Assembly: GCF_009932555.1 (NCBI RefSeq)
Contig: NZ_BLJO01000004.1
Coordinates: 136,962 to 195,615 of the forward strand
Length of the DNA: 58,654 bases
Reading direction: 5' to 3'
Source of the DNA: Steroidobacter agaridevorans
GTDB lineage: Bacteria; Pseudomonadota; Gammaproteobacteria; Steroidobacterales; Steroidobacteraceae
Position 1 is the first letter of the stretch. Every line of letters starts with the position of its first letter. The notes under the pieces were generated by a model. That model was given only the letters and a program-made list of their open reading frames with translations. It was not told where the DNA came from and did not search any database. Shown piece by piece: positions 20,924 through 29,665 of this stretch. A program made the translations under genes and the position numbers.

Positions 20924-21406
20924 TTACTTGACCAACGGCCGGCGCGCGACGATGACGCCATCCTCGTCCGCATACAACCAATCGCCGGGACGGAACGTTA
21001 CGCCGCCGAAGCGAACGACGAGGTCGCGCTGGCCTTCGCCGCGCTTGTCGGTCTTCAGGGGATGCGTGCCGAGCGCTTTGACGCCGATGGGCATGTCGGC
21101 CATCGCGGCGGAGTCGCGAATGCAGCCGTAGACCACGATGCCGGCCCAGCCGTTATCGACTGCTTTCTTGGCGAGCATATCGCCGACCACTGCGCGACGC
21201 ATGGATCCGCCGGCATCGATCACGAGCACGCGGCCGTTGCCGGCCTCGGCGGTCAGCTCGCGGACCAGCGAGTTATCTTCGAAGCATTTGATGGTGGCGA
21301 TCGGCCCGCCGAACTGGAGCTGTCCGCCGAAGTCGCCGAACAAGGGCTCGCAGATTTCCAATTCGTCGCTGAATTGATCGCAAAGGTCGGCGGTTCTGAT
21401 ATCCAC
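20924..21406 (-). CDS. rraA: RraA-family protein (ribonuclease E activity regulator / aldolase-like)
   Basis: 160 residues, GTG start with GAGG about 9 bases upstream. The family core is clear: VLVIDAGGSMRRAVVGDMLA (~81-100), GIVVYGCIRDSAAMADMPIG (~108-127) and a C-terminal VTFRPGDWLYADEDGVIV. RraA binds RNase E and lowers mRNA decay. Many relatives sharing this fold are 4-hydroxy-4-methyl-2-oxoglutarate aldolases, and the GCIRD site keeps that possibility. The length suits RraA. It is the second gene behind the SPOR-domain gene, so it may share its riboswitch-controlled transcript. Confidence 0.92.
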   Translation of the reverse strand: MDIRTADLCDQFSDELEICEPLFGDFGGQLQFGGPIATIKCFEDNSLVRELTAEAGNGRVLVIDAGGSMRRAVVGDMLAKKAVDNGWAGIVVYGCIRDSAAMADMPIGVKALGTHPLKTDKRGEGQRDLVVRFGGVTFRPGDWLYADEDGVIVARRPLVK

Positions 21407-21488: not shown

Positions 21489-23543
21489 TTACTTCTTTTT
21501 GCCTAGCAGGCGCGACAACAACGAGTTGTTTTGCGGCAGCTTGCGAACGCCGCTCTCGGACAACTCGACTTCGCGCGCCTCTTCCATCAGCTCCTCGGCC
21601 AGGCTCTTCTTGAGCTGCTTGTGCTTGCCGGTGTTACCGGCGCGAGTCGGCTCGGAGCGCCTGGTGGCTGGGGAGGCGGATTTGGCGGCGACTCTGCTGT
21701 CCAGCGCCTTATGCACGCCGGTGGAGTTCAGCTTGAACGCGCCCGTGGCATTGGCTTTGAACGCGCCGGTCGCGCCAGGCTTGAACGTGCCAGTGGCGGA
21801 GTTCAGCGCGCCGGTAGCGTTCGGTCGGAACGCACCGGTCGCGTTGGGACGGAATGCACCGGTCGCCGACGTATCGACTTCCATGGTGATGGTCGGCACA
21901 ACCGGCGCGCGATTGGCGCGGGCGTTGTTGAGCTCGACGACGTTGTTCTTCGGCTCTTCCGGCTCGGCGCGACGTGGCTGCGGAGCATCCTTGAAGCGCG
22001 CCTGTTCGGCGACGCTGATGCGCAGCACGGACGGCGCTGGGAAGAATGTCTTCAGATATCCCGAGACTGCTTCGGCCGACACGGCTTCCTTGAAGAAGCC
22101 CAGGCGCAGCGAGTGCACGATCTTGCCGCTGCCCGCGGTCGCGACCGAATACAAACGATAGGCCTCGAAGATATCGAGGTGTGGCAGGATGTCCAGGTTC
22201 ACCGGCTGCTCGGACGCGGCCAGTTGAATCGCAAACCACTTCTCCTGCGCGTTGTCGTTCAGCTCATCGTTGGTCAGCGCGCGAATGGTCTGCGTGCTGT
22301 CGAGATTCGGATGCGCGTGCGACGAGCCGCGAACCAGTGCGGGCGGCACTTGTTTCGGCAGCGGCACGGCGGCCTTGTTTGCCACAGCAGGAACCGAGGG
22401 CTTGGCTGGCTCCGCCTTCTTGGCAACCGTCGGCGCCGCAGGCTTTGCAGCGGCGGGCTTCGGCGCAGCGGCCGCTTTGTTTGTTACAGCGGGCGCCGGC
22501 TTCACAGCTGCGGCGGGTGCGGCGACCTTCGCCGGCGGGTCGTCGCGCAGGTCGAGCTCGAACGCATCGATTTCTTCGATGTCGATGCCCTTGCCGACGT
22601 GATACGGCTCATTCGACGCTTTGCTCTTCTGTGCAGCGGCGGGAGTCGGTTGCGGATCGGAGAACGTCAGCGCGGGCACGCGCACGCTCGCTGCCGTATC
22701 CAGCTTCGGCGGGACGGCGACAGGGGCGGGCGGAGTAGCTGCCTTGTTCGCAGCGGACGCAGGCGCCGCTGGAGTGGTCTTGATCTTCAGCTTGCCGGTG
22801 TCGAGTGCGGCGAACTTGCCGCTCAACAAACCCACGGCCAGCGGCTCTTTCGACGCTGCAGCCGCGGGGGCGGGATCGTCGTTCCAGCTCATCTCATCGA
22901 GGCCAGGCGCTTCGGTGAGCGCTTTGATCTTCGGCAACGAGGCCGAAGTGACCGCGGCCTTGGTGGCTTCGTCCGGCTCCCAGGTCATCTCGACGATTTC
23001 GTCGTTCGGCGCCTTCTTCGCGGCGGGTTTCGCCGGTTGAGCGGGTTTCGTCGCAGCGGGTTTCGCAGCGGCCTGTGGCGCGGGCGCTGCCTTCGGAGCG
23101 GGTGCGGCTTTCGCAGCGGGGGCTGGGGCAACAGGAGCAGGCGGCGGTGCATTGACGACAGCAACAGCGGGGCGCGGTGCAGGCGCCGGCGCGGCGGCCG
23201 GCAAATAGCCGCGAGCGAAGCGGCGGTCTTCATCGCTCAGGCTGGTCGTGAAGGCGGTCGGATACTGCTGGCGAACGACGGTGAGCACGCGTTCGGCATG
23301 CGCTTCATTGGTAAAGAAACCGAGGCGCAAACGATGCCGCGTGCGGCCGTCTTCGACGCGCGCGACCTGATAAAGCTTGTAATTCTCGAGCCCGGGAATG
23401 TTACGGCCCGTCGTCGACACCGGCGCGATCGACGCGCACAGGTTGATGACAAACAGCTGCGTGCCGCTCCCTGCGTTCTGGGAGACGAGCGGCGGCTGTG
23501 AGCGTTCCGGCTCCACATAGACCTTGCTGGTATTGTCTTCCAC
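21489..23543 (-). CDS. Two-SPOR-domain protein with Pro/Ala linker and ATGAF octapeptide repeats
   Basis: 684 residues from a GTG at 23543 with GGGGAAG upstream. The open frame reaches 23666, but the extra 41 residues are basic and lack a ribosome site. A first SPOR-like domain is at ~25-105 (FVINLCASIAPV...RTRHRLRLGFF). A ~300-residue Ala/Pro/Lys-rich linker follows, then a second SPOR-like domain (~445-535, WFAIQLAASEQPV...KIVHSLRLGFF). A run of ATGAF-type repeats (~565-615) and a basic tail ending RLLGKKK close the protein. SPOR domains usually bind denuded septal peptidoglycan, but there is no signal peptide or membrane helix here. That makes a cytoplasmic role likely. A cyclic-di-GMP riboswitch lies in its leader. 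Confidence 0.82.
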   Translation of the reverse strand: MEDNTSKVYVEPERSQPPLVSQNAGSGTQLFVINLCASIAPVSTTGRNIPGLENYKLYQVARVEDGRTRHRLRLGFFTNEAHAERVLTVVRQQYPTAFTTSLSDEDRRFARGYLPAAAPAPAPRPAVAVVNAPPPAPVAPAPAAKAAPAPKAAPAPQAAAKPAATKPAQPAKPAAKKAPNDEIVEMTWEPDEATKAAVTSASLPKIKALTEAPGLDEMSWNDDPAPAAAASKEPLAVGLLSGKFAALDTGKLKIKTTPAAPASAANKAATPPAPVAVPPKLDTAASVRVPALTFSDPQPTPAAAQKSKASNEPYHVGKGIDIEEIDAFELDLRDDPPAKVAAPAAAVKPAPAVTNKAAAAPKPAAAKPAAPTVAKKAEPAKPSVPAVANKAAVPLPKQVPPALVRGSSHAHPNLDSTQTIRALTNDELNDNAQEKWFAIQLAASEQPVNLDILPHLDIFEAYRLYSVATAGSGKIVHSLRLGFFKEAVSAEAVSGYLKTFFPAPSVLRISVAEQARFKDAPQPRRAEPEEPKNNVVELNNARANRAPVVPTITMEVDTSATGAFRPNATGAFRPNATGALNSATGTFKPGATGAFKANATGAFKLNSTGVHKALDSRVAAKSASPATRRSEPTRAGNTGKHKQLKKSLAEELMEEAREVELSESGVRKLPQNNSLLSRLLGKKK

Positions 23544-23714
23544 GTTTCTTCCCCGACCCGTTGCGCCGCCGAATACCGCCCGCTTGCGGTGGACGCACTC
23601 CAGCTGAACGGATTCTTCATTTCGGCGGGGGGAGTGAGCGCGCTTATGCGCATCGCGCTCGTTCACGGCAGTTTCGCTGTTGTCTTTTGTGGCGAAACCG
23701 TTGCCGCATCATGT

Positions 23715-23812
23715 CGCGGCCCCGTGGCAACCCCGCTGTCTTAGGAAATGAATCCGTTAGACCGGAAGCTTTGCGTCCTCGCCTTTCGGCGAGTTTGCCC
23801 AGAAAAAATCGA
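23715..23812 (-). promoter_or_regulatory. Class I cyclic-di-GMP riboswitch (GEMM-I)
   Basis: Read on the minus strand, the conserved GEMM-I blocks occur in order: GGGCAAAC, a stem capped by a GAAA tetraloop (TCGCCGAAAGGCGA), GGACGCAAAGC, CCGGTCTAA and AGCGGGGTTGCC. These match the well-known Vibrio Vc2 aptamer block for block, including the tetraloop and the GACGCAAAGC receptor side. A promoter lies ~30 bp upstream. The SPOR-domain gene starts ~170 nt downstream. The leader between contains a hairpin (GTTTCGC / GCGAAAC, about 23667-23706) that could be the expression platform. No T run follows it, so I cannot say whether ligand turns the gene on or off. The rest of the 427-bp gap (23544-23970) shows nothing else. 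Confidence 0.9.
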
Positions 23813-23841
23813 CCAAGAAATTTCTTTGTAGGAACGTTTTG

Positions 23842-23870
23842 ATCATCGGCACGCTGAAGGCATAAGTCAA
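23842..23870 (-). promoter_or_regulatory. Sigma-70-like promoter of the riboswitch transcript
   Basis: On the minus strand TTGACT (23870-23865) and GATGAT (23847-23842) are separated by exactly 17 bp. Transcription would start near 23835, about 30 nt before the aptamer. The -35 matches 5 of 6 and the -10 matches 4 of 6 consensus bases. Confidence 0.6.
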
Positions 23871-23970
23871 GCAGTACGGTCGCTTTCAGCAGACATGGCG
23901 ATTGGCGACAGGTGACTGGCTGGCCCGGCCTTGAGCTTATGTCTCATTCAGCTGTTTTGCCGGGGCTGCT

Positions 23971-24306
23971 TTACACCGCCATGCGCGTCCAGGCTTCCTT
24001 GCTGGCGCTCGCCGGCTCGCCCGCCATGATGCGTGGCGCGAGCTGAGAAACGATATGGACCTGGGCGGCATCGGACAGGCCGAGCGCACGCAGCGCGCCT
24101 TCCAGGCCCTCGATCAGCTGGCGACGCTCGTTCTCCGTCGGACAGCTGTCACGGGCCAGCGCAGCGAGCTCATCGCCCACGCTCTCCAGGGTTTCGGCGA
24201 TCGAGGGCGCGAACTCGCTCAAGTCCCCGCGCAGGCGCGCGGCGAAGCGAAACGAGTTGTATGCGCACACGTACGCGCGATGTCTGAGCTTCAAGTTCTT
24301 CAACAT
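23971..24306 (-). CDS. Hypothetical protein, mostly helical
   Basis: 111 residues from an ATG at 24306 (MLKNLKLRHRAYVCAYNSFRFAARL). A GTG at 24372 in the same frame would add 22 residues (MEFVSPFTL). Neither start has a convincing ribosome site, so the start is unsure. The sequence is predicted helical, with an acidic middle (SIAETLESVGDELAALARD) and no membrane segment or signal. I recognise no family. Confidence 0.55.
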   Translation of the reverse strand: MLKNLKLRHRAYVCAYNSFRFAARLRGDLSEFAPSIAETLESVGDELAALARDSCPTENERRQLIEGLEGALRALGLSDAAQVHIVSQLAPRIMAGEPASASKEAWTRMAV

Positions 24307-24518
24307 TCCCACCGCATCGGTCTCCCGCACGAAGGTCGCGGGCGAAAGTGTGAAGGGCGACACGAATTCCACGGTGTGCGCCAGATCGCAAAACGGGGTC
24401 GTATTTCGGCGTTGTATTTACGCCGCATTACGGATCAAACACGTACACGCAAACTATTTTTTGCTGCGAAAAATTCACGCGCGCGCCGTTGACAATGAGC
24501 AACTGTCGTGATGCTGGG

Positions 24519-24574: not shown

Positions 24575-24874
24575 TTATGCGCGGCCCACATTGCGGTCCG
24601 TGGGCGAATGGAAATATTCGCTTTCTTCGGCGAATTGACGCATCAGTTTGCGCAGCTCCTCGATCCGGCCCTCGGCGGTGCTGATCGGCTGGCATTCTTC
24701 GCATTCGGGATCCGAGCAGGGCTGCCGGGAGTACAACCAGTACTGCACGGCTCCCGCCAGCAAGCCGTCGGCGATGTCCCAGATATCGGCCTTGTCATCC
24801 GTGTCGGCGATCCGGTTGCCCAGATCGACGGCCTTGCCGAAGGCCTCGCTGAAGGGGTTATCGGGTTCCTGCAT
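24575..24874 (-). CDS. Hypothetical protein with a Cys cluster
   Basis: 99 residues, acidic. A central WDIADGLLAGAVQYWLYSRQP segment is followed by CSDPECEECQP, three Cys in a CxxxxCxxC pattern that could bind a metal. The C-terminal part (RIEELRKLMRQFAEESEYF) looks like an amphipathic helix. It has no signal peptide. The ATG at 24874 is the first start in the frame. I recognise no family. Confidence 0.65.
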   Translation of the reverse strand: MQEPDNPFSEAFGKAVDLGNRIADTDDKADIWDIADGLLAGAVQYWLYSRQPCSDPECEECQPISTAEGRIEELRKLMRQFAEESEYFHSPTDRNVGRA

Positions 24875-25647: not shown

Positions 25648-27063
25648 ATGTTGGCGACTCCGTACGATGAAATGCATGCCAGCGACGGCGGCGTGCGCGA
25701 GCACTACAAGACCTTCGCTTCCTGGCTCGCGCGCACGCCGAGCGAGCGCGTGGCTCACAAGCGCGCCGAGGCCGACACGTTGTTTCATCGGGTCGGCATC
25801 ACGTTCACCGTTTATGGCGAGGACGCGGGCACCGAGCGCCTGATTCCCTTCGACATCGTTCCTCGCATCATTCCGGCCAACGAATGGAAGCACCTCGCCG
25901 CCGGCTTGAAACAACGCGTGCGCGCGTTGAACGCGTTCACCAACGATATCTATCACTCGCAGGAGATCTTGAAGGCCGGCCGCATTCCCGCCGAGCAGGT
26001 GCTGTGCAATGGGCAGTACCGGCCCGAGATGCAGGGCATCGACGTGCCGGGCTCGATCTACGCGCACATCGCCGGCGTCGATGTGGTGCGTGCCGGCGAG
26101 GGCGAGTTTTACGTTCTCGAAGACAACCTGCGCGTACCCTCGGGCGTGTCCTACATGCTCGAAGACCGGCGCATGATGATGCGATTGTTTCCCGAGCTGT
26201 TCGCGCTGCATTCGGTGGCGCCGGTCGAGCACTATCCCGATCTGCTGCTGGAGAACCTGCGCAGCGTCGCGCCGTCGGGTGTGAACGATCCGACGGTCGT
26301 GCTGCTGACGCCGGGTGCTTATAACAGCGCGTACTTCGAGCACGCGTTTCTGGCGCAGCAGATGGGCATCGAGCTGGTCGAGGGACAGGATCTGTTCGTC
26401 GACGACGAGTTCGTCTACATGCGCACCACCCGCGGCCCACAACGAGTGGATGTGATTTATCGGCGCATCGACGACGACTTCCTGGATCCGCTGGTGTTTC
26501 GGCCGGATTCGATGCTGGGCATTCCGGGACTGTTGGCCGCGTATCGCGCGGGGCGCGTGACGATTGCGAATGCGATTGGCACGGGTGTGGCGGACGACAA
26601 ATCCATTTATCCCTATGTGCCGGAGATGGTGCGCTTCTATCTCGGCGAAGAACCGTTGCTGTCGAACGTGCCGACGTTTGTTCTCCGGCGGAAAGAGGAT
26701 CTGGCGTATACGCTCGCGCACCTGCGGGAGCTGGTCGTCAAGGAGGTTCATGGGGCCGGCGGCTATGGAATGTTGATCGGCCCCGCGGCCAGCAAGGCTG
26801 AGCTGGAAGCGTTCCGTCAGCGGATCCTGCGCTCGCCGGAGAAATACATCGCACAACCGACACTCACGTTGTCGGCATGCCCGACGTTTGTAGATGCCGG
26901 CATCGCGCCGAGGCACATCGATTTGCGACCGTTCGTGTTGTCAGGCCGCGAAGTTACGTTGGTGCCGGGTGGGCTGACCAGAGTCGCGTTGAGAGAAGGA
27001 TCGCTGGTGGTGAATTCGTCGCAGGGCGGCGGGACGAAAGATACGTGGGTGTTGGAGCGATGA
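25648..27063 (+). CDS. Circularly permuted ATP-grasp enzyme (DUF404/DUF407)
   Basis: 471 residues with AGAGG 7-8 bases before the ATG. Family hallmarks: RIIPANEWKHLAAGLKQRVR (~73-92), FYVLEDNLRVPSGVSYMLE (~154-172), NAIGTGVADDKSIYPYVPEM, VKEVHGAGGYGM and a C-terminal RPFVLSG...VVNSSQGGGTKDTW. These enzymes are predicted to use ATP to form amide (peptide-like) bonds. In many genomes they stand with an alpha-E protein, a transglutaminase-like protease and the Anbu peptidase, as here. The actual substrate is not known. First gene of the operon, behind the sigma-54-like site. Confidence 0.93.
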   Translation: MLATPYDEMHASDGGVREHYKTFASWLARTPSERVAHKRAEADTLFHRVGITFTVYGEDAGTERLIPFDIVPRIIPANEWKHLAAGLKQRVRALNAFTNDIYHSQEILKAGRIPAEQVLCNGQYRPEMQGIDVPGSIYAHIAGVDVVRAGEGEFYVLEDNLRVPSGVSYMLEDRRMMMRLFPELFALHSVAPVEHYPDLLLENLRSVAPSGVNDPTVVLLTPGAYNSAYFEHAFLAQQMGIELVEGQDLFVDDEFVYMRTTRGPQRVDVIYRRIDDDFLDPLVFRPDSMLGIPGLLAAYRAGRVTIANAIGTGVADDKSIYPYVPEMVRFYLGEEPLLSNVPTFVLRRKEDLAYTLAHLRELVVKEVHGAGGYGMLIGPAASKAELEAFRQRILRSPEKYIAQPTLTLSACPTFVDAGIAPRHIDLRPFVLSGREVTLVPGGLTRVALREGSLVVNSSQGGGTKDTWVLER

Positions 27064-27091
27064 ACGCAGGCAGCCCGCAGGGCGTACGCGC

Positions 27092-28039
27092 ATGCTGAGC
27101 CGCACCGCCGATCATCTCTACTGGATGGCGCGCTACACGGAGCGTGCCGAAAACCTCGCTCGCATGCTCGACGTCAACTCGCGCATGTCGCTGCTTCCTC
27201 AAGGGGCTGAAATCCTCGAGCAGGGCTGGATCGCCACCCTCACCATCATCGGCCTGATGGAAGCATTCCGGCAGCGCTATGACTCCGTGACTTCATCGAA
27301 CGTCATCGCATTCATGGCATTCGACCGCGACAACCCTCTGAGCATCTGCAGCTGCGTCCACGCCGCCCGTGAAAACGCGCGAGCCGTGCGAGGCACGCTC
27401 ACTTCAGAGATCTGGGAAACGTTGAACGCGACCTGGCTGGAAATGCGTGGCATGAGCCTGCGCTCCGCCAACGAGACGGAAGTGGGCAACTTCTTCGAGT
27501 GGGTGAAATATCGTTCGCACGTCGCGCGGGGCGTCATTCAAGGCACGATGTTGCGCGATGAAGCCTGGCACTTCGCCTGGCTCGGCACTTATCTCGAACG
27601 CGCCGACAGCACTGCTCGCATTCTCGATGTGAAGTATCACTTGCTGCTCCCTCGCGGCGAGCAAGCGGGCGGAGCGGCGGATTACTACCAGTGGAGCGCG
27701 CTCTTGCACTCGGTGTCCGCGTTCGAAATCTATCGTCGTGTGTATCGCGACTTGATTACGCCAAGGCGCGTGGCAGAACTGCTCGTTCTGCGCGACGACA
27801 TGCCTCGCTCGCTGCGTCGATGCATGTCTCAAGTACACATGCATCTGCAATCGGTGCGGAATGCGCAGTCGGCGGAGACCGAGCGGCGGGCCGGTGAGCT
27901 GCAGGCGTCGCTGCATTTCGGTCGCATCGACAGCGTGTTCGAGATCGGGCTGCACGAATACCTGGTGCGATTCCTCGGTCAGGTGCGCGATCTCGGCGAT
28001 CGGGTGTCCCGAGACTTCCTGGTGTCGGCCACCGACTAG
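27092..28039 (+). CDS. Alpha-E domain protein (DUF403)
   Basis: 315 residues, all-helical. The family signature opens the protein: MLSRTADHLYWMARYTERAE. Later motifs include FDRDNPLSICSCVHAARENA, LRDEAWHFAWLGTYLERADS and MPRSLRRCM. It starts 28 bp after the ATP-grasp stop. Alpha-E proteins are nearly always found with circularly permuted ATP-grasp enzymes, sometimes fused to them, and are thought to be their partner. The biochemical role is unknown. Confidence 0.93.
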   Translation: MLSRTADHLYWMARYTERAENLARMLDVNSRMSLLPQGAEILEQGWIATLTIIGLMEAFRQRYDSVTSSNVIAFMAFDRDNPLSICSCVHAARENARAVRGTLTSEIWETLNATWLEMRGMSLRSANETEVGNFFEWVKYRSHVARGVIQGTMLRDEAWHFAWLGTYLERADSTARILDVKYHLLLPRGEQAGGAADYYQWSALLHSVSAFEIYRRVYRDLITPRRVAELLVLRDDMPRSLRRCMSQVHMHLQSVRNAQSAETERRAGELQASLHFGRIDSVFEIGLHEYLVRFLGQVRDLGDRVSRDFLVSATD

Positions 28040-28047
28040 GAGACGGC

Positions 28048-28854
28048 ATGCAACTGCATATCCGACACGAAACGTTCTATCGCTACGGCGAGCCGGTGAA
28101 ACGCAGCGTGCAGAACCTGCGGCTGACGCCTCGTCGCGATCCCATGCAACGCGCGCTCAGCTGGAACATGGCGACGCCGGGGCATTGTCGCTCGCAAGTC
28201 GATGCGTACGGCAACATCGTGCATTTGCTCACGCTCGATGAGCCGCACAAGGAAATTCGCATCGTCGTGAACGGCATCGTCGAGACCGAGGATCATCCCG
28301 CCGTGTCGGTGCCTGACGAGGGTCAGCTCTCGCCGCTGGCGTTTCTGGCCGAAACGCCGCTGACTCGTCCGGATGAGGCTATCGCAAGCTTCGCGCGCGC
28401 TCGCTTGCAAGCGGGCGGCGACGTGCGAGGCAAGTTGCTCGAGCTGGCGGACGCCGTGTGTGAAGAAGTGCGCTATGAAAAAGGCGCCACCGACGTGCAC
28501 GAATCCGCGTCGCGAGCGTTCGCGCGTGGTGCGGGCGTCTGCCAGGATCATTCGCACATCTACATAGCCAGCTGCCGCAGCGCCGGCATTCCAGCACGCT
28601 ATGTCAGCGGTTACTTTTACGCAGGTCCGGAGGGCGAGATCGCCAGTCATGCGTGGGTGGATGTTTGGACCGGCCACGAGCAAGGCTGGATGTCCATCGA
28701 CGTGACTCATCGCACGCCCACCGACGGGCGGCATTGCCGGCTGGCGGTAGGTCGCGATTACCTCGATGCCTGCCCGGTGCGTGGTGTCCGTCGCGGCGGC
28801 GGAGCGGAGGAAATGCAGGTCGCGGTGCGGATCGCGGCAGCCGCGCAACAGTGA
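28048..28854 (+). CDS. Transglutaminase-like cysteine protease family protein
   Basis: 268 residues with AGGAG upstream, only 8 bp after the alpha-E stop. An N-terminal beta domain (MQLHIRHETFYRYGEPV, LRLTPR) is followed by the transglutaminase core. The catalytic triad is visible: Cys165 in GAGVCQDHSH, His201 in SHAWVDVW and Asp218 in SIDVTH. Proteins of this group act as peptidases or amidases rather than cross-linkers. With the ATP-grasp enzyme next door it may cut the bond that enzyme makes. Confidence 0.92.
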   Translation: MQLHIRHETFYRYGEPVKRSVQNLRLTPRRDPMQRALSWNMATPGHCRSQVDAYGNIVHLLTLDEPHKEIRIVVNGIVETEDHPAVSVPDEGQLSPLAFLAETPLTRPDEAIASFARARLQAGGDVRGKLLELADAVCEEVRYEKGATDVHESASRAFARGAGVCQDHSHIYIASCRSAGIPARYVSGYFYAGPEGEIASHAWVDVWTGHEQGWMSIDVTHRTPTDGRHCRLAVGRDYLDACPVRGVRRGGGAEEMQVAVRIAAAAQQ

Positions 28855-28927
28855 TGCCAATGTTTTGCAATGGAGTCTATAGTTCGCGTTTCCTGGGCAC
28901 TGCCGCCCACTGACTGCGGTTGTAGCT

Positions 28928-29665
28928 ATGACGTATTGCGTAGGCATGCTGCTGGATGCCGGGCTGGTGTTCCTTTCCGACTCGCGCACCAACGCGGGCG
29001 TGGACCAGATCAGCACGTTCCGCAAGGTGACCATCTTCGAACGGCCGGGCGATCGGGTCATGGTGCTGATGGGCGCCGGCAATCTCGCGATCTCCCAGGC
29101 GGTCGTGAATGTTTTGCACGAACACGAGAACGAGCCGGGCATCAAGGGGATCTGGACCTCCAAGAACATGTTCGAGGCGTCGCTCGCGGTCGGCGAGGCG
29201 CTACGGGAGGTTCACAAGCGCGATGCCGAAGCGCTCAAGGATCATCACATCGAGTTCAACGCCTCGCTGATCTTCGGCGGCCAGATCGGCGGCGAAGAGC
29301 CGCGGCTGTTTTGTATCTACGCGGCCGGCAATTTCATCGAGGCCACGCCGGAGACGCCGTATTTCCAGATCGGCGAGTCGAAGTATGGCAAGCCGATTCT
29401 GGACCGGGTCATTTCCCGCAGCACCAGCCTCGCGCAAGGCGCCAAGTGCGCGCTGATCTCGATGGACTCGACGATCAGATCGAATCTCTCGGTCGGTGTG
29501 CCGTTGGATCTGCTATCGATCAAGCGCGATGAGCTGAAGATCCACAGCCACGTGAACATCGACGAGAACCACGCGTACTTCCGGATGATCCGCACGCGCT
29601 GGAGCGAGAGCCTGCGCCATGCGTTTCACGAGATTCCCGATCCGGAATGGATGCGGCGGAGCTGA
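28928..29665 (+). CDS. Anbu proteasome-like peptidase (ancestral beta subunit)
   Basis: 245 residues. The Ntn-hydrolase nucleophile is Thr2, exposed once Met1 is removed (MTYCVGMLLDAG). Asp18 (FLSDSRTNAG) and Lys33 (FRKVTIF) complete the proteasome-type site. The core GDRVMVLMGAGNLAISQAVV and HIEFNASLIFGGQIGGEEPR fits Anbu rather than HslV. Length is also that of Anbu. No HslU/ClpX-like ATPase gene is nearby, as is usual for Anbu. Last gene of the four-gene set, 73 bp after the transglutaminase gene. Confidence 0.93.
   Translation: MTYCVGMLLDAGLVFLSDSRTNAGVDQISTFRKVTIFERPGDRVMVLMGAGNLAISQAVVNVLHEHENEPGIKGIWTSKNMFEASLAVGEALREVHKRDAEALKDHHIEFNASLIFGGQIGGEEPRLFCIYAAGNFIEATPETPYFQIGESKYGKPILDRVISRSTSLAQGAKCALISMDSTIRSNLSVGVPLDLLSIKRDELKIHSHVNIDENHAYFRMIRTRWSESLRHAFHEIPDPEWMRRS

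Follow-up and report, generated by a model that had tools for sequence, protein, structure and literature searches.

The closest described systems to the locus analysed here are the class I c-di-GMP (GEMM-I) riboswitches Vc2 and Cd1 and, on the protein side, the SPOR-domain (PF05036) proteins FtsN, DamX, DedD and RlpA. The window, a stretch of 58,654 nucleotides from Steroidobacter agaridevorans, shares with Vc2 and Cd1 a full aptamer with tetraloop, receptor and pocket positions, as well as an upstream promoter and a leader that precede an envelope-type gene. In contrast to both, P1 is not recognisable in the window copy and the target is a cytoplasmic-looking two-SPOR protein. Cd1 is described as transcriptional in the available part of the source (PMC9262584), whereas no intrinsic terminator was found at the window locus. 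The other GEMM-I targets in the order (He_PIG proteins, M23 peptidases and PilM) share the same aptamer class and are envelope or surface genes, whereas an aptamer-linked SPOR gene was found, as sampled, only in the window's family, the Steroidobacteraceae. Taken as a whole, the best explanation of the locus, to which we give a little better than an even chance, would be a c-di-GMP riboswitch that acts as a translational OFF switch of the SPOR protein.

A covariance-model search placed a match to RF01051 at 23809..23723 on the minus strand, covering model positions 1-87 of 87 with 81.5 bits (E 1.6e-14) against a gathering score of 35; this c-di-GMP-I aptamer is the sole gathering-level Rfam match listed in the window. 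The segment 23723-23809 is a genuine full-length class I c-di-GMP aptamer of a known, ordinary class. This outcome bears out a sequence-only reading of the same DNA, which had claimed a class I c-di-GMP riboswitch here and proposed the RF01051 search; the GAAA tetraloop and GACGCAAAGC receptor that it had named are both present in the RF01051 alignment. The genome of the window (8.0 Mb in 26 contigs) holds eight c-di-GMP-I aptamers, and the targets of the others include AhpC/TSA-type, Ig-like and fn3 proteins and an M23 peptidase. As a separate observation, two c-di-GMP-I aptamers, L004 and L006, stand in tandem 119 nt apart (G000:C10:180633-180736 and 180856-180940), and a third, L007 (C10:182624-182725), lies 1.7 kb upstream of the tandem with an Ig-like (He_PIG) protein as its next gene.

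The link between this aptamer class and the SPOR gene extends well beyond the window. At least one c-di-GMP-I aptamer was found in 163 of 200 family genomes, and 126 of the 200 match the N-terminal part of the SPOR protein; of the best 150 aptamers listed, 58 are followed on their own strand, at a distance of no more than 600 nt, by a listed SPOR match. We surveyed one SPOR locus per genome in 117 of the 126 matching genomes, the window's included, using a covariance model built from 57 SPOR-linked aptamers. A same-strand aptamer was found upstream of the SPOR gene in 99 of the 117 loci; for 57 of these the match is given by construction, for the remaining 42 it is not. The weakest, L162, is a short hit of 36.9 bits, and the remaining 98 reach at least 55. 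The distance from aptamer end to start codon in these loci is 28-262 nt, with a median of 96. The P2 and P3 helices show compensatory change across the 57 aptamers: 97.1% of expected pairs are formed, and in 35 cells both sides have changed, which 0 of 500 shuffles attain. Five aptamer pairs have both sides changed, a number reached by 46 of 500 shuffles, and two of five covariation measures fall within shuffle range (46/500 and 38/500 reach them); the covariation leans towards pairing because the sequences had been selected with a structure model. The aptamer-SPOR gene pair is conserved across many genera of the family while the neighbouring genes change. That the pair is kept while gene order changes is strong evidence that c-di-GMP matters for the role of the protein, and an uncharacterised SPOR-protein family thereby gains a regulatory handle.

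The 18 surveyed SPOR loci without an aptamer fall into several kinds. Twelve look like a paralogous subfamily: the N-terminal motif WHL[ST]I[ED]DL occurs in L088, L089, L092, L095, L105, L108, L116, L136, L173, L175 and L183, L094 carries a variant of it, and all of these are aptamer-less, while the motif, read in frame, occurs in 0 of the 99 aptamer-bearing loci. Two more, L182 and L185, look like another kind of gene. Four loci (L121, L124, L144 and L168) are true aptamer lacks, and an unfiltered search of nine aptamer-less loci that included these four gave nothing above 12.7 bits. Within one genus, L124, L144 and L168 lack the aptamer before the SPOR gene and L119 has it, so that three of the four species drawn lack it; where the promoter would be expected, L124 and L144 retain TTGACC and CACACT, as read by eye in the upstream sequence. 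The comparison of L124, L144 and L168 with L119 is a case of natural riboswitch loss. Both this genus and the paralogues without a riboswitch are natural controls.

Outside the family the aptamer serves other genes. The order was surveyed through 196 genomes, those of the window's family among them: c-di-GMP-I aptamers turned up in 145, and 50 matched the SPOR alignment. Outside the family the SPOR matches are weaker, most of them falling in frames longer than 800 codons, and among the matches and aptamers listed none adjoins an aptamer. We fetched 40 aptamer sites from outside the family, some of them near-identical, and scanned 37 with Pfam, two of the remainder being cut by contig ends and one having masked sequence in the gene. 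The 39 downstream reading frames gave 13 He_PIG, 11 M23 peptidase and 2 PilM matches, and SPOR is absent from the 25 families listed of 43, which would still allow for one SPOR target in these frames. The commonest sampled targets outside the family are Ig-like proteins and M23 peptidases. The claim that a c-di-GMP aptamer before a SPOR gene is an unusual output is supported. In the literature searched, which took in few subscription papers, we found no report of a c-di-GMP riboswitch paired with a SPOR gene and none of a riboswitch in Steroidobacteraceae. One paper that combines c-di-GMP, riboswitch and SPOR domain concerns CsrA in Acidithiobacillus caldus and, in the available part of the text, not such a riboswitch (PMC13029372). 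The riboswitch class is known, and the SPOR gene as a conserved regulon member appears to be new in the literature searched.

A sigma-70-type promoter, TTGACT-17 nt-GATGAT, was found by sequence match at 23842..23870 on the minus strand, in agreement with the 17-bp-spaced promoter that had been read upstream of the aptamer. It matches the consensus at 9 of 12 positions (shuffles average 0.1). It is also conserved: of the 99 loci with an aptamer, 87 have TTGAC at most 75 nt upstream of it, compared with 89 of 3168 background windows.

The ligand of the window aptamer is very probably c-di-GMP. At the positions equivalent to Vc2 G20, A47 and C92, the last two being what we take to be the correspondence, the window copy has G, A and C; among the 99 aptamers, 94 have G, 99 have A and 97 have C. 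Two SPOR-linked aptamers from two genomes of one genus, L084 and L086, have A at the first of these, the ligand-selectivity position. An A at this position is typical of cGAMP-type GEMM-I members, and L084 and L086 might recognise cGAMP or show mixed recognition. The equivalent of Vc2 G20 in Cd1, G11, is termed a selectivity factor in the available part of the source (PMC9262584), and cGAMP-binding members do exist within GEMM-I, as the accessible portion of another source states (PMC8835794). These members and the two relatives with A would speak for 3',3'-cGAMP as the ligand of the window aptamer instead, but the window and 93 of the 98 other aptamers have G at the selectivity position, and we regard this alternative as highly improbable.

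The gene behind the leader, at 21489..23543 on the minus strand, was assigned from its open reading frame, Pfam and homologues and encodes a SPOR protein of 684 aa. Its start is likely GTG 23543, which lies 180 nt past the aptamer and behind GGGGAAG, the predicted ribosome-binding site (23548..23554, minus strand); GGGG occurs at -18..-4 in 67 of the 99 leaders. GTG 23666, which opens the reading frame, was considered as start codon and set aside, GTG 23543 with GGGGAAG being preferred. Pfam gave a single SPOR match (PF05036, aa 54-98, E 3e-4), which is marginal at 21.5 bits against a gathering score of 21. The N-terminal SPOR domain comprises aa 31-98 (23250..23453, minus strand), with strands and a helix in the structure model. 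A C-terminal SPOR-like domain at about aa 436-510 (22014..22238, minus strand) has no Pfam match and is visible in the structure model and homologues only; it is conserved in the protein alignment A4, and pLDDT is 75-88 across ten-residue blocks from 431 to 510. The claim that the next gene encodes a two-SPOR protein is upheld with one domain from Pfam and the second from model and homologues.

The AlphaFold2 model (mean pLDDT 51.9) has two small alpha/beta domains, at about aa 30-98 and 436-510, in a chain whose remainder is for the most part predicted with low confidence. In the PDB, Foldseek ranks highest the peptidoglycan-binding domains of CwlC, RlpA (two entries), DamX and DedD; these five matches have probabilities of 0.72-1.00 and E values of 0.012 to 0.068, the output leaving unspecified which of the two domains is aligned. 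All five, the CwlC domain included, are of SPOR type. A SPOR match at E 0.01 is present in 21 of the 30 proteins of alignment A4, the window's included; a sequence-profile search found no PDB chain for the protein, and there is no NCBIfam match. With moderate confidence, the modelled structure points to a SPOR fold in the window protein.

The PDB matches to CwlC, RlpA, DamX and DedD are what the protein has in common with the FtsN, DamX, DedD and RlpA group. SPOR-domain proteins are characteristically exported and bind denuded peptidoglycan. In contrast to that group, it has no N-terminal signal and no convincing membrane segment by simple hydropathy, and its two SPOR domains are separated by a long Ala/Pro/Lys-rich linker. 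A 19-residue hydropathy window of at least 1.6 occurs in 9 of 98 SPOR proteins, mostly in an Ala/Pro-rich linker or a SPOR strand. A conserved basic helix, LLSRLLGKK here and RLLERLSERVRK in other genera (21495..21521, minus strand), forms the C-terminus; it was identified from homologues and model, and its helical moment is 0.32 in the window copy and 0.49-0.79 in four versions from other relatives. This helix may tether the protein to the membrane. Tentatively, and short of an even chance, the protein may be cytoplasmic, with a role in division or on the inner side of the envelope. A more far-reaching proposal, which we consider doubtful, is that in Steroidobacteraceae a riboswitch lets c-di-GMP directly determine how much is made of a SPOR protein that is cytoplasmic and possibly tethered to the membrane, giving control of peptidoglycan or division without a protein effector, and that the SPOR fold would here work inside the cell on a partner other than periplasmic glycan.

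For the switch itself, we propose that transcription would start at the sigma-70-type promoter and that the class I aptamer would be made first. With c-di-GMP bound, the P3 helix would be held together and the leader would be free to pair around the GGGGA-type ribosome-binding site, and this pairing would lower translation of the SPOR protein. With little ligand present, the strands of the aptamer would find other pairing partners, leaving the site more open. A translational OFF switch of this kind predicts the SPOR protein mainly at low c-di-GMP.

Control is likely translational and not transcriptional. Intrinsic or Rho-dependent termination in the leader would agree with the length of the leaders (median 96 nt, up to 262) and with the stable hairpins of the window's own, but no terminator-like site occurs on the strand of the SPOR gene in 23400-24100; moreover, intrinsic termination is unlikely because a stretch of five T precedes the start in only 3 of the 99 leaders. 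We judge transcriptional control to be improbable. One of the leader hairpins, CGGTTTCGC...GCGAAACTG at 23669..23700 on the minus strand, was found by folding and in an alignment of six sequences (the window and five relatives); five of the six, among them the window, have it intact, in L075 it is partly broken, and it lies clear of the ribosome-binding site. This hairpin, placed at about 23667-23706, had been put forward as a possible switch. It does fold, but without a U-tract; it was rejected as a terminator for that reason and is unsupported as a switch. A second leader hairpin, GAGCGCG...CGCGCTC (23636..23660, minus strand), appears in the consensus fold.

Leader folding was carried out for 96 of the 99 loci, which span 17 of 25 genus labels; L162, L093 and L154 were dropped for an atypical or very short leader. 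Predicted accessibility of the ribosome-binding site was 0.351 with the aptamer enforced and 0.410 unconstrained, against 0.410 and 0.408, respectively, in controls with shuffled linkers. The real accessibility difference exceeded the shuffled one in 63 of 96 leaders (p 2.4e-5, relatedness ignored). Real and shuffled leaders differ in the aptamer-formed state (p 1.2e-6) and not in the unconstrained state (p 0.58), and the restriction of the difference to the aptamer-formed state favours an OFF switch. The stricter contrast of aptamer formed against P3 broken gave 0.358 and 0.381 (p 0.056); the better p-value is that of the second of two contrasts, since formed against broken was run first and formed against unconstrained after it. 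By genus label, the effect is positive in nine of 17 groups and negative in eight, and all five groups with at least six leaders are positive. These figures suggest an aptamer-dependent change in predicted site accessibility as a family average, which leans on a few large genera.

The pairing partners were also compared with shuffles. Linker complementarity to the ribosome-binding site is above that of shuffled linkers (mean z -0.62, 67 of 96 below zero, 12 of 96 with p<=0.05), and complementarity to the aptamer strand GCGGGG is unenriched (mean z +0.33, 31 of 96 below zero, 2 of 96 with p<=0.05). In the window, a C-rich segment, CTCCCCCCGCCGA (23622..23634, minus strand), is complementary to both GGGGAAG and the GCGGGG strand, and in this leader shuffled linkers pair with the ribosome-binding site just as well (p 0.55). 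A strict two-strand competition, in which such a segment is common to GCGGGG and the ribosome-binding site, was rejected, as complementarity to the aptamer strand is not above shuffles.

The window leader runs opposite to the family trend, with accessibility 0.50 when the aptamer is formed against 0.29 when P3 is broken, and 0.21 with the aptamer enforced against 0.09 unconstrained. For the window's clade at least, a switch that turns translation ON would account for a leader that is more open with the aptamer enforced: without ligand the 5' strand of P3, CUUCC, would pair with GGAAG in the ribosome-binding site and GCGGGG with CCCCGC, and ligand would restore P3 and free the site. The consensus fold of the same six sequences has both pairings, but the five CUUCC-GGAAG pairs are invariant in them and thus give no covariation, aptamers of other genera (alignment A1) mostly have GCCACC there, which is not complementary to GGAAG, the C-rich segment can still cover the site with the aptamer formed, and the family-wide accessibility trend is the opposite. 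We consider an ON switch unlikely, though a serious candidate, and for the translational switch that we prefer the direction would, with modest confidence, be OFF.

It is also conceivable that the window copy is a worn riboswitch that has lost switching. Enforcing the aptamer costs 12.2 kcal/mol in the window leader, against a median of 5.5 for the 96, the stretch between promoter and aptamer is changed in the window's clade, and the P1 closing pairs GTG/CAC, present in 59 of the 99 aptamers by a simple motif test, are absent from the window copy. On the other hand, the closest relatives show hardly any change in the aptamer core, and the promoter has been retained; we hold such decay to be quite improbable.

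Downstream of the SPOR gene, 82 nt past its stop, lies rraA (20924..21406, minus strand), which reaches 238.3 with the RraA model NF006875 (cut-off 136) and barely reaches an aldolase model (196.5 against 196). The two genes are possibly co-transcribed at the window locus. An output through rraA and RNase E had been suggested for the riboswitch; the position of rraA after the SPOR gene stands, but the link is weakened and looks incidental because rraA is next to the SPOR gene in only 9 of 117 loci, all with the window's genus label. As a conserved output rraA was rejected on the same count. Upstream of the promoter lie two short hypothetical genes (23974-24372 and 24578-24874, minus strand), which have no Pfam match at E 0.1 and are present in 13 and 15 of the 117 loci. 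Further along the window, a cluster at 25648-29665 encodes, by Pfam, a circularly permuted ATP-grasp protein, together with one that weakly resembles a proteasome beta subunit, and two more reading frames in it look like alpha-E and transglutaminase proteins.
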